The notes beneath the pieces are model-generated. The model saw only the letters and a program-made list of their open reading frames with translations, was not told where the DNA came from and did no database searches. 32,054 nucleotides of DNA. It comes from Ilumatobacteraceae bacterium (GTDB lineage Bacteria; Actinomycetota; Acidimicrobiia; Acidimicrobiales; Iamiaceae). Position numbers and translations under genes: made by a program. The DNA is taken from NCBI GenBank assembly GCA_025463265.1, contig JAOBWH010000162.1, positions 1-32,054 on the forward strand, in the 5' to 3' direction. Within the stretch, counting starts at the first letter, position 1. Each line of letters begins with the position of its first letter. This document shows positions 8,017 through 11,643 of this stretch, piece by piece.

Positions 8017-9711
8017 ATGAACACCTTCCGACTCCCATGGTCCGGTGAGGTGGCGGGTTCGCTCGCCCTCTCCGGCGCCGATGCCCCACCCGCACCGACA
8101 CCGATCGGCCGCACCATCTTGGGGAGGCCCAAGTTCCGGCGGATGCCGATCTCGTCGTTCAAGAACCGTGAGGTCCAGAAGCGGTTCGGCGTGATCCTCG
8201 CCGGGAAGATGATCGGCATCGCCGCCCTCTTCGGCGCCATCTTCCTCTTCTACTTCCTGTTCGAGACCGCAGCCGGCGCGGCTCCCGCCCAGGCGGCCAA
8301 GGCCGGCGTCGACACCGTCAACGCCATCAACACCATGTGGGTGCTGGTGGCGGCCTTCCTGGTGTTCTTCATGCAGGCCGGCTTCATGGCCCTCGAGGCC
8401 GGCTTCGCCCGGTCCCGGGAATCGGTCAACATCATGATGGAGTGCATCTTCGACACCTGCTTGTGCGGGATCTTGTACTTCGCCATCGGGTTCGCCTTCC
8501 AGTTCGGAGCGGGCGCCCTCGTCGGGTCGGACTACTTCTTCCTCCACAACATCCCGGCGACCTACGACTACGTGGGCTCGTTCGACACCGGGATCGCCTT
8601 CCTGGCGTTCTTCCTCTTCCAGTTCGCCTTCGCCGACACCGCCTCGACCATCACGTCGGGCGCCATGGTCGGCCGCACGAGCTTCAAGGGCGACATCCTC
8701 TACAGCCTCGTGGTGTCGGGCTTCATCTACCCGATCTTCGCCCACTGGGTGTGGGGTCCGGGCGGCTGGCTCAACAGCGGTGGCTGGGGCCCGTTCAACG
8801 GGATCGTCGCCGACGGCATCGTCTTCCGTGACTTCGCCGGTTCCACCGTCGTGCACACCGTGGGCGCCCTGCTCGCCCTGATGGGTGCGCTCGCCCTCGG
8901 CCCGCGCCTCGGCCGCAAGTTCGCCAAGGAGGGCGGCGGCCCCACCTCCCCGCACGACCTGAACATCGCCGCCATCGGCGCCGTCATCTTGTGGTTCGGC
9001 TGGTACGGCTTCAACCCCGGCTCCACCCTCTCGGCCATGGACGCCGCCGGCATCGGCCGGGTCGCCGCCAACACCACGCTCGCCGCCTGTGCGGGCGGTC
9101 TCGTCGCCGTGTTCTTCGTCTACCCCCGCTCGAAGAAGTGGGATGTGGGCATGGCCATCAACGGCCTGCTCGGCGGCCTCGTGGCCATCACCGCACCCTG
9201 CTACTGGGTGAACCCGCTGGACGCCATCATCATCGGCGCCATCGCCGGTGTCCTGGTCCCGCTGGCCACCGACCTGCTCGAGCGGCTCAAGATCGACGAC
9301 CCGATCGGTGCGGTGCCGGTCCACGGCATCTGCGGCGTCTTCGGCACGTTGGCCGTCGGCCTCTTCGCCGCCGGCGAGTACGGCCTCCCCGGTCCCGACG
9401 GCGCCGACAACGCCTCGCCCATCAGCGGCCTCTTCCACGGCGGCGGTGCCGATCAGCTCGTGGCCCAGGCCCTGGGCAGCCTGACCTGCCTGGTCGTGGT
9501 CGGCGGAGCAGCCGCCCTGCTCATGTTCGGCATCCGCCAGCTGCCTGGCTCCTGGAACCTCCGGATCGCCCGCGACGAGGAGCTCGAGGGCATCGACATC
9601 GTCGAGCACGGGCTCACCGCCTACCACATGGAGTTCGGTGCCGGCGCCACGTACACCACCTACTCGGGTGCTCCGCTTCCCGAGCAGCCGGTCGAGAACC
9701 AGTCGGTCTGA
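8017..9711 (+). CDS. amt: Amt family ammonium transporter
   Basis: The 564-residue protein has the Amt core: MQAGFMALEAGFAR, the family signature DFAGSTVVHTVGALLALMGAL and GAVPVHGICGVFGTLAVGLF. The twin pore histidines are H280 and H436. The C-terminus has the EGIDIVEHGLTAY segment through which PII proteins regulate these channels. Eleven core helices plus an extra N-terminal hydrophobic segment (about 52-75) follow a 45-residue soluble leader, which is long for the family. ATG 8017 is taken as the start; ATG 8143 would remove most of the leader. The protein conducts ammonium into the cell. It is followed after 3 nt by a winged-helix gene and then glnK, so the locus is an amt-glnK operon with an inserted regulator. 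Confidence 0.93.
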   Translation: MNTFRLPWSGEVAGSLALSGADAPPAPTPIGRTILGRPKFRRMPISSFKNREVQKRFGVILAGKMIGIAALFGAIFLFYFLFETAAGAAPAQAAKAGVDTVNAINTMWVLVAAFLVFFMQAGFMALEAGFARSRESVNIMMECIFDTCLCGILYFAIGFAFQFGAGALVGSDYFFLHNIPATYDYVGSFDTGIAFLAFFLFQFAFADTASTITSGAMVGRTSFKGDILYSLVVSGFIYPIFAHWVWGPGGWLNSGGWGPFNGIVADGIVFRDFAGSTVVHTVGALLALMGALALGPRLGRKFAKEGGGPTSPHDLNIAAIGAVILWFGWYGFNPGSTLSAMDAAGIGRVAANTTLAACAGGLVAVFFVYPRSKKWDVGMAINGLLGGLVAITAPCYWVNPLDAIIIGAIAGVLVPLATDLLERLKIDDPIGAVPVHGICGVFGTLAVGLFAAGEYGLPGPDGADNASPISGLFHGGGADQLVAQALGSLTCLVVVGGAAALLMFGIRQLPGSWNLRIARDEELEGIDIVEHGLTAYHMEFGAGATYTTYSGAPLPEQPVENQSV

Positions 9712-9714
9712 GCC

Positions 9715-10356
9715 GTGGCCCTGCCCACCGTCGAGATCCTCCGCTGGCCGGCCCAGGCCGGCCGGCGAGAGGACCTCGTCGCGGCTCACCGGCCGTGCCT
9801 CTGGGTGCTCGAGACCGGCGATCTCCCGCCGGCCATCGGGCCCCTGGAGGACTGGGCCCGAGACGGGGACAGCGAGCGTGACGTCCACGCCCGGGTCCAG
9901 CGCCTCGCCGCCCTGGCGCCGGAGGTCCACACGCTCTACCCCCGGGAAGCGTGCGTGGACGACGAGGGGATGCTCCACTTCCGGGGTCACCTCATCGCCA
10001 TCCCGCCCACCGAGGCCCGGTTGCTGGACCGCCTCGCCGAGACCCCCGAGACCATCGTGACCCGAGACGAGCTCAGCCGCCTCCTGTGGGACGGCCCCCC
10101 GGCCAGCCGGAGCTCGCTCACCAGTCGGATCCACACCCTGCGGAAGCGGCTCCGGCCGGCCGGGCTCACGATCCATGCGATCCGGGGCCACGGCTTCCTG
10201 CTCACCGCAGGGGCGCCCGCCGCCGCAACCCGTCCACCGTCGAGGTCGACGCCACCGGGCTCGGCACCGGCCAGCTCGTCATCAGCAAGCTCATCACCAT
10301 CTCGCTCGTCATCATCAAGGAGGACCTCGTGGTCCAGCTCGTCACAGCCATCGTGA
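9715..10356 (+). CDS. short OmpR-type winged-helix regulator (paralogue A)
   Basis: Residues 92-165 form an OmpR/PhoB-like winged helix ([50 protein letters not shown]). Residues 1-70 resemble a shortened receiver domain without an acidic pocket or the conserved Lys. The protein is a clear paralogue of the one at 11116-11643: both share LRWPA near the start, LEDW, PPxEARL and RGxGFxLT. Actinobacterial GlnR is also an OmpR-type regulator with an atypical receiver, so a role in nitrogen control is plausible by context. GTG 9715 lies 3 nt after amt. Residues 166-213 are a Ser/Arg-rich low-complexity tail with poor codon usage that overlaps glnK by 28 nt; see findings on a possible frameshift. 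Confidence 0.72.
10317..10324 (+). promoter_or_regulatory. strong ribosome-binding site deciding the glnK start
   Basis: AAGGAGGA lies 4 nt before GTG 10329, an almost perfect anti-16S match. It fixes the start of glnK even though the frame is open well upstream. Confidence 0.75.
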
Positions 10357-10670
10357 AGCCGTTCATGCTCGAGGACGTCAAGACCGCTCTGCGGATCTTC
10401 GGCGTCCAGGGCATCACGGTCAGCGAGGTCCAGGGGTACGGCCGCCAAGGCGGCAAGACCGAGACCTTCCGGGGTTCGGAGTACGCCGTGGACTTCGTCC
10501 CCAAGGTCCGCATCGACGTCGTCGTCAAGGCCGATCAGGTCGAGGGCGTGTTCACCGTCCTCGCCGATGCCGCCCGCACCGGCAAGATCGGTGACGGCAA
10601 GATCTGGGCGACCGAGGTCACCAAGGTCATGCGGGTCCGGACCTCGGAGGTGGGCGAGGACGCCGTCTAG
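10329..10670 (+). CDS. glnK: nitrogen regulatory protein PII
   Basis: The 113-residue protein matches PII from end to end: [15 protein letters not shown] at the N-terminus, the T-loop [21 protein letters not shown] with the modifiable Tyr (Y52 here, equivalent to Tyr51), KVRIDVVV, then the C-terminal [22 protein letters not shown] with the B- and C-loop signature. PII trimers bind ATP/ADP and 2-oxoglutarate and, through the T-loop, block Amt channels when nitrogen is plentiful. Linkage to amt supports the GlnK type. The T-loop Tyr is kept, so uridylylation or adenylylation is possible. GTG 10329 is set by a strong ribosome-binding site. The frame is open upstream for at least 42 more codons with perfect G/C third positions, but contains no start codon there. 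Confidence 0.93.
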
Positions 10671-10719
10671 GCGTCCCGGCCCCACCGTTCCCGGTCAGAA
10701 CCCGATAGGAAGACGTTCC

Positions 10720-11076: not shown

Positions 11077-11077
11077 T

Positions 11078-11098
11078 CTCGGGCCCGTCGGGCCCGAG
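11078..11098 (+). terminator. perfect 9-bp hairpin between two nitrogen-locus genes
   Basis: CTCGGGCCC (11078-11086), loop GTC and GGGCCCGAG (11090-11098) form a perfect GC-rich stem starting 2 nt after a stop codon and ending 17 nt before the next start. There is no T-run, so it may be a partial terminator or an RNA-processing or stability element rather than a full stop. Confidence 0.5.
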
Positions 11099-11115
11099 CA
11101 ACGAAAGGTGTTCCC

Positions 11116-11643
11116 ATGACCACGTTCGCCCCGAGCGATGCGCCCATCGCGCTGCTCCGGTGGCCGGCCGACGCCGACCGCCGCACGGAGCTCACCGAGG
11201 AGCGCCGGCCCCGGCTGCTGCTCCTCGAACCCGACGCCGCCCCGCCCACCAGCTGGGACGTGCTCGAGGACTGGGTCCGGCTCCCCGCCGACCCCGCAGA
11301 GATCGAGGCCCGCATCACCACGCTGATGCGCCGCCTCCCCTCCGCCGCCCCCGCCCCGCTGCTCGACGGCGACGGCGTGCTGCGGGTCGGCGCCCGCTGG
11401 GTGGCGCTGCCGCCCGTCGAGGCCCGGCTGGTGACGGCCCTGCTGGCCCGACCGGACTCGGTGGTGTCCCGGGACCGCCTCCTCGCCGCCGGCTGGCCTG
11501 CGGGACAGCCGCCGGGCAGCACCAACGGCCAGATCCTCGACGGCCGCATCAAGCTGCTGCGCCGCCGCCTGGCCGAGGTCGGCCTCGAGATCCACACCGT
11601 GCGAGGCGTCGGTTTCGTCCTCACGGGCCAGAACCACGGCTGA
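11116..11643 (+). CDS. short OmpR-type winged-helix regulator (paralogue B)
   Basis: The 175-residue protein is a paralogue of the one at 9715-10356 and shows the complete form. Its C-terminal winged helix (about 95-171) has PPVEARLVTALLA, SRDRLLAAGW, LDGRIKLLRRRLAEVG and IHTVRGVGFVLTG. The N-terminal 90 residues look like a receiver that lost its middle: a first strand (IALLRWPA), a strand LLLLEPDA, then EDWVRLPADPAEIEARITTLMRRL. That last segment parallels the end of an OmpR receiver (DDYxxKPFxxxELxARIxxLLRR) but has Leu in place of the conserved Lys. Phosphorylation control is therefore unlikely. At 175 residues it is about 50 shorter than GlnR. ATG 11116 follows GAAAGGTG. Context suggests nitrogen-responsive transcription control. 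Confidence 0.72.
   Translation: MTTFAPSDAPIALLRWPADADRRTELTEERRPRLLLLEPDAAPPTSWDVLEDWVRLPADPAEIEARITTLMRRLPSAAPAPLLDGDGVLRVGARWVALPPVEARLVTALLARPDSVVSRDRLLAAGWPAGQPPGSTNGQILDGRIKLLRRRLAEVGLEIHTVRGVGFVLTGQNHG

Follow-up and report, generated by a model that had tools for sequence, protein, structure and literature searches.

Our analysis of a 32,054-nucleotide stretch of DNA from an Ilumatobacteraceae bacterium (Acidimicrobiia), hereafter the window, which is one whole contig (G000:C50), identifies two regulators, A and B, as members of a seemingly undescribed family of short OmpR-type proteins in which about half of the receiver domain is missing, phosphorylation site included. Both genes belong to a forward-strand row, amt, regulator A, glnK, small membrane protein and regulator B (8017-11643), whose order and coordinates are those reported in a first-pass annotation of this DNA. 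The anatomy of the locus, the family, its linkage to amt and glnK and its promoter are well supported, and the promoter evidence points first toward control of these proteins by their amount. It can be speculated, with roughly even chances of being right, that GlnR drives the accumulation of A and B, which would act as dimeric feedback regulators. Members of the family seem to take part in how many Acidimicrobiia respond to nitrogen shortage. No NCBIfam model scored above its cut-off for A, B or the stand-alone copy, and no description of the family was found among open-licence PubMed Central (PMC) papers.

No Pfam model matches the N-terminus of A or B. The AlphaFold2 models of A (mean predicted local distance difference test, pLDDT, 93.6; predicted template modelling score, pTM, 0.66) and of B (mean pLDDT 90.2, pTM 0.67) place a strand-helix-strand-strand-helix unit ahead of the winged helix, and a complete five-stranded receiver with a phosphorylatable aspartate is not present in either of them; structure prediction, which the first-pass annotation had recommended as a check, thus returned confident half-receivers but not the complete receiver fold. 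Fold alignments were built on 47 of the 50 full-length family members (three divergent rows were left out) and the N-terminal alignment on 46 of the 50. From strand 1 through the end of the last helix (positions 12-73 of B) the N-terminal domain comprises only 58-62 residues in all 47 aligned rows, and therefore about half of a receiver is missing. In B numbering, P44, R149 and G166 are invariant in these rows, and W16, P17, E51, D52, W53, R55, R66, L70 and R73 are kept in 90% or more of them.

Several of these conserved residues correspond to a known dimer interface. The dimer face of KdpE, as described in a section of PMC4773095, involves the pairs Asp96-Arg118 and Asp97-Arg111, with Glu107 supporting Arg111, and E51, D52, E62, R66 and R73 of B match D96, D97, E107, R111 and R118 of that protein with identical spacing. 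Among the 47 rows, E51 is found in 44, D52 in 45, aspartate or glutamate at position 62 in 44, R66 in 45 and R73 in 44; the combination of acids at 51 and 52 with basic residues at 66 and 73 occurs in 39. The best matches of profile searches against solved structures start where the family's EDW motif falls, in register, on the DDY motif of receivers, and run through the last strand, the last helix, the linker and the winged helix of response regulators; a few matches, two GlnR entries included, begin earlier, at family position 17-22. By these alignments the N-terminus matches the last strand and helix of receivers, and its simplest reading is a receiver that lacks the phosphorylation half and has kept the alpha4-beta5-alpha5 half used for pairing. 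The earlier view of a receiver-like N-terminus devoid of phosphorylation chemistry is thereby borne out, the last strand and helix being receiver-like and the phosphorylation site gone, whereas the companion idea of a receiver that had lost only its pocket residues has to give way to a deletion of about half of the domain.

The elements of the locus are the following:

7967-7993, forward strand: GlnR-type box, a triple direct repeat with 11-bp spacing, GTTAC-n6-CGCAC-n6-GAAAT (matrix score 20.6)
8004-8009, forward strand: -10 hexamer TACGTT, 10 nt past the last half-site and 7 nt before the amt ATG
8017-9711, forward strand: amt, ammonium transporter with an N-terminal extension (PF00909, 1.3e-114; TIGR00836 above cut-off)
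9715-10356, forward strand: regulator A, with a GTG start 3 nt past the amt stop
9733-9915, forward strand: half-receiver of A, residues 7-67 (strand, helix, strand, strand, helix; AlphaFold2)
9994-10203, forward strand: winged helix of A (PF00486, Trans_reg_C, 1.3e-11 to 2e-11; structure matches, e.g. 7lz9 with Z 12.6, 90 residues and a root-mean-square deviation, rmsd, of 2.3)
10329-10670, forward strand: glnK (PII), with a GTG start preceded by AAGGAGG (PF00543, P-II, 9.7e-26)
10720-11076, forward strand: small membrane protein with two hydrophobic segments (hydropathy peaks in windows starting near residues 12 and 71)
11116-11643, forward strand: regulator B (PF00486, 1.1e-10 to 1.2e-10)
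11149-11334, forward strand: half-receiver of B, residues 12-73, with dimer-face residues E51, D52, E62, R66 and R73 (AlphaFold2, conservation counts)
11401-11622, forward strand: winged helix of B (PF00486; structure matches, e.g. 3rjp with Z 12.4, 92 residues and rmsd 2.4)

The arrangement from amt to regulator B looks like one operon with coupled translation. The amt start was set at the ATG at 8017, the ATGAAC start being kept in four sister loci, and the open reading frame of A overlaps the start of glnK by 28 nt, stop included. Comparison of the sequences upstream of amt revealed a triple direct repeat with an 11-bp period followed by 10 nt, a TAnnnT hexamer and the start codon; the same element precedes amt in L085, L095, L099 and L100. 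With its own site left out of training the window box still scored 18.0, the next best place in the window reaching 11.2. Scanning 733 kb with a matrix derived from 11 amt sites gave scores above 17 at 44 places, including ten training sites, as compared with 0-3 places in each of five mononucleotide shuffles, and at least nine of the 44 lie upstream of family genes with no amt or glnK within 5 kb. When this matrix, trained only on the 11 amt sites, was applied to 67 independent family loci, a box above 14 was found just upstream of the family gene in 62, against none of the 67 shuffled sequences. The spacing between repeat and -10 hexamer is the same in 51 sites, which had been filtered for spacing, and is visible in most rows of the 67 loci. 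There the start codon usually follows the -10 hexamer by 6-8 nt and, because it is so close, the transcripts of amt and of the family genes are probably leaderless. Another candidate promoter motif of the window, GTTMCGTACC, was discarded, since its 28 matches, with two mismatches allowed, did not exceed the 31.1 expected and it was not seen upstream in relatives, a check that used poor gene starts.

A full-length GlnR could read this box. Its orthologue, found in 54 of the 61 genomes compared, is a separate gene of the window's genome on G000:C150, whose matches among solved structures at 1e-30 or better are three GlnR entries only and whose pocket looks degenerate. On that contig (L267, about 5112-8394) glnR adjoins a glnA-type gene and is divergent from a second glutamine synthetase gene, and GlnR-type repeats resembling the amt box lie between the glnA-type/glnR row and the divergent gene. 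A 43-column matrix, run without a shuffled control, scored above 8 in nine of the ten glutamine synthetase loci of the window's genus (L277-L286), five of them above 17; outside the genus a single promoter reached this score (G027, covered by two overlapping loci), and the remaining 18 of the 30 loci had no such site. Published GlnR boxes, as listed in Table 2 of PMC10704036, have a 5-n6-5 layout, e.g. t/gna/cAC-n4cn-GnAAc, and the window box shares it. The box also occurs in 11 of 27 amt upstream stretches from 17 genomes that lack the family (small or incomplete genomes were left out; a tandem pair contributes twice to the 27, and the start of one row is wrong), as well as in 21 of 31 such stretches from loci with the family, on which the matrix was trained; shuffled sequences gave none in either set. 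Because GlnR is near-universal and the box is kept at amt where the family is absent, GlnR is the likelier reader of the box and the A/B family would probably be a member of the GlnR regulon.

The same promoters could instead be read by the A/B family itself, which would autoregulate its leaderless promoter and activate amt. Direct repeats are bound by proteins of the OmpR type; nowhere is the box more invariant than immediately ahead of the family gene (62 of 67), even at loci that have no amt nearby; and the strict form TTCAC-n6-GAAAC-n6-GAAAC occurs once in the window's own genome, at the stand-alone family gene. The persistence of the box at amt without the family, the similar box before the glutamine synthetase gene near GlnR, and the wide distribution of GlnR together with a published GlnR box of this form (in the portion of PMC10704036 that deals with it) speak against this explanation, which we regard as a real yet rather doubtful possibility.

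The family is linked to amt and glnK. Linkage was counted with cleaned queries on members verified with a hidden Markov model (HMM) in two samples, the second gathered by protein alone from a named species collection (166 relatives found, 80 loci kept, of which 13 duplicated the first set, leaving 67 independent). In the first sample amt or glnK lies within 5 kb of 34 of the 51 family genes and within 1.5 kb of 32; in the second, 30 of the 67 have one within 5 kb, the same 30 within 1.5 kb, and the figure is 17 of 37 when 5 kb is available on both sides. None of 46 ordinary OmpR-type or GlnR loci used as a control has amt or glnK within 1.5 kb. The homologues are thus not scattered without linkage to amt/glnK, even though between a third and about half of the members have neither gene nearby in the stretches examined. 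A first count of 38 of 54 was dropped, since some of its regulator features were antisense open frames.

This neighbourhood bears on the signal that A and B may perceive. They could sense nitrogen by contact with GlnK, the half-receiver serving as a PII docking site, and it fits this view that glnK lies within 5 kb of 30 of the 51 and 23 of the 67 family genes and that, of the six loci of the A clade (the window being one), five have an A gene that runs into the start of glnK (by 13-16 nt, counting the stop, in L085, L092, L099 and L100; there is no overlap in L095). Many family genes are nonetheless without glnK in the stretch examined, and co-transcription explains the adjacency, so that we consider sensing by contact unlikely.

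Returning to control by amount, the joint proposal is that at nitrogen shortage GlnR would bind the triple box and switch on the leaderless amt-A-glnK-small protein-B operon, and likewise glnII and the family gene where it stands alone. A and B would then accumulate, dimerise without phosphorylation and bind direct repeats of the same general kind, thereby tuning amt/glnK and the GlnR regulon by feedback, as activators or repressors, and their signal would be mainly their own abundance. Receivers are usually regarded as one folding unit. Here the dimer-forming half alone has apparently been kept in dozens of species, with a likely nitrogen regulon and an almost invariant promoter, and the family is a natural experiment on how much of a receiver is required. 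It also adds an element that had been missing from nitrogen control in a class that is large and mostly uncultured, and the predicted leaderless promoter is open to testing.

A number of observations weigh against this proposal. Its support comes from sequences and models, and the greatest invariance of the box at the family gene itself also fits autoregulation. Regulator A has a leucine in place of R73, the other four dimer-face residues being kept. The isolated N-terminus matches solved receivers weakly (best E 0.3, second 0.65, in the same register), and three of its five matches up to E 10 are 1-aminocyclopropane-1-carboxylate (ACC) deaminases (E 1.6). Structural comparison is dominated by the winged helix, the VIA-align rows covering mostly residues 75-173; the N-terminal fold is barely probed by it, as the few rows that extend over the N-terminus have rmsd above 11. 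The family gene is absent from two genomes of the same genus, G002 (best match 1.2e-6) and G011 (5.3e-7), and hence the family is not needed everywhere, while two distant members from another class (L265 and L266) have no box above 12 anywhere in their stretch. The hhalign comparison of the isolated N-terminus with 13 GlnR orthologues of its own class also gave only Prob 3.7 over 23 columns, as against Prob 16.8 (23 columns) with nine canonical receivers; the value rose to Prob 61.4 (52 columns) with 21 receivers of GlnR type from other classes. Any special relationship with the GlnR receiver is therefore only suggestive: the earlier description of the N-terminus as an extreme form of a GlnR-type receiver is favoured by the similarity to other classes, and the low own-class value and the coexistence of a full-length GlnR tell against it. 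A value of Prob 80.5 to GlnR was discarded, because its '41 GlnR-type' rows were mixed and six had been found with the family profile itself.

The same comparison touches on whether the half-receiver forms heterodimers with GlnR through the dimer face they have in common, serving as a modulator or dominant-negative partner at promoters with three half-sites. Dimer-face residues are kept in the family and GlnR is reported, in the part of PMC10704036 devoted to its structure, to dimerise via alpha4-beta5-alpha5; this face, however, is general among OmpR-type regulators and the N-terminus is not specially close to own-class GlnR, so such pairing seems very improbable. A half-receiver switch that combines amount control with mixed GlnR pairing on leaderless three-half-site promoters, duplicated within the amt-glnK operon, may be thought improbable as well; if true, transporter, PII and two partner regulators would rise together.

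A and B are 38-40% identical, and at E 1e-22 to 2e-24 their resemblance is not due to chance; the shared motifs noted previously (LRWPA, LEDW, PPxEARL and RGxGFxLT) are literally there, LRWPA and LEDW in both proteins. Their origin by duplication, also claimed at the outset, agrees with a common clade of 16 of the 50 rows (support 100/99), much of the tree outside it having no resolution. Within the clade A clusters with five sequences drawn from four genomes of the genus (six rows, support 99/95), and the shortest paths from B lead to copies of G014 and G020; the duplication is therefore older than the genus. Aquihabitans sp. G128 (L095) carries a second copy of the order amt, A, glnK, a similar small protein and a B-like gene, and tandem pairs occur in G014 and G020. 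Matches to B at 1.1e-19 or better were found in 31 of the 61 genomes, its own included, the next genome standing at 5.6e-9. The profile search gave 56 HMM matches, of which 50, on 44 stretches including the window, were full length by the chosen cut; the remaining six, all partial, comprise a frame-shifted gene in two halves and four ordinary response regulators. The frame-shifted gene (L109, G013:C11), split across two frames by an assembly error or as a pseudogene, entered the linkage count with its larger half, the smaller one being left aside. In a phylum sample of 396 genomes, with the nine best candidates scored per genome, 11 had full-length members (1.6e-47 or better), and four of these 11 genomes lie outside the class. 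Among the latter, L263 has amt, glnK and regulator in a row and a weak site (13.9) before amt, and L264 has glnK and regulator at a contig end and no site above 12.

Where it stands alone, the family gene is frequently part of a recurring block (L068, L072, L077, L079, L081 and others; clusters c3, c5, c6, c7 and c9) with phosphoglycerate-mutase-like and dnaK/grpE/dnaJ-like genes, named by eye only. In the window locus, the Amt N-terminal extension (8017-8316) contains by eye an extra transmembrane helix and has similar sequence in four sister loci, and the C-terminal tail of regulator A (10213-10356) is Ser-rich, of low complexity and longer than in sister copies. The small protein (10720-11076) has a possible counterpart in L095 (9550-9918; 28% identity, E 3e-4 in a two-sequence comparison), shares with it a C-terminal RGPPS motif, and is matched weakly, under the cut-off, by the NCBIfam model for LpqS, a putative copper (lipo)protein (E 0.0021).

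Among known systems, the OmpR/PhoB response regulators have the same C-terminal winged helix (Trans_reg_C) as A and B and the alpha4-beta5-alpha5 charged dimer residues that these keep, except for the last arginine in A. GlnR resembles A and B in its type of winged helix, its nitrogen regulon and the 5-n6-5 box, and its receiver is reported as unphosphorylated in the relevant part of PMC10704036; it differs in having a full-length receiver, about half of which A and B lack, and in its separate location beside a glnA-type gene. A and B are not GlnR orthologues, since the orthologue is a different gene, on G000:C150. Their nearest known analogue is GlnRII (Streptomyces SCO2213), described in an excerpt of PMC10704036 as OmpR-like, devoid of phosphorylation sites and among the listed GlnR targets, and for which the pertinent lines of PMC3087709 report no role in S. 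venezuelae. It is not a member of the family. Probable GlnRII proteins were taken from two genomes (L268 and L269), near a probable glnII, and their recognition helix fits the Ala and Arg that have been described for GlnRII. On these two proteins the HMM of the family is significant over the winged helix only (profile positions 75-157 and 73-157), for which reason A and B are not GlnRII, and the N-terminal piece of L268 scores -1.1 bits, the N-termini not being homologous. GlnRII adjoins glnII, whereas A and B of the window adjoin amt and glnK and the probable glnII is on C150. HP1043 and ChxR are likewise phosphorylation-independent OmpR/PhoB-type regulators, as proposed here for A and B, and ChxR is a stable dimer; in contrast to A and B, both are described, in the passages of PMC3960148 that treat them, as keeping the receiver structure.

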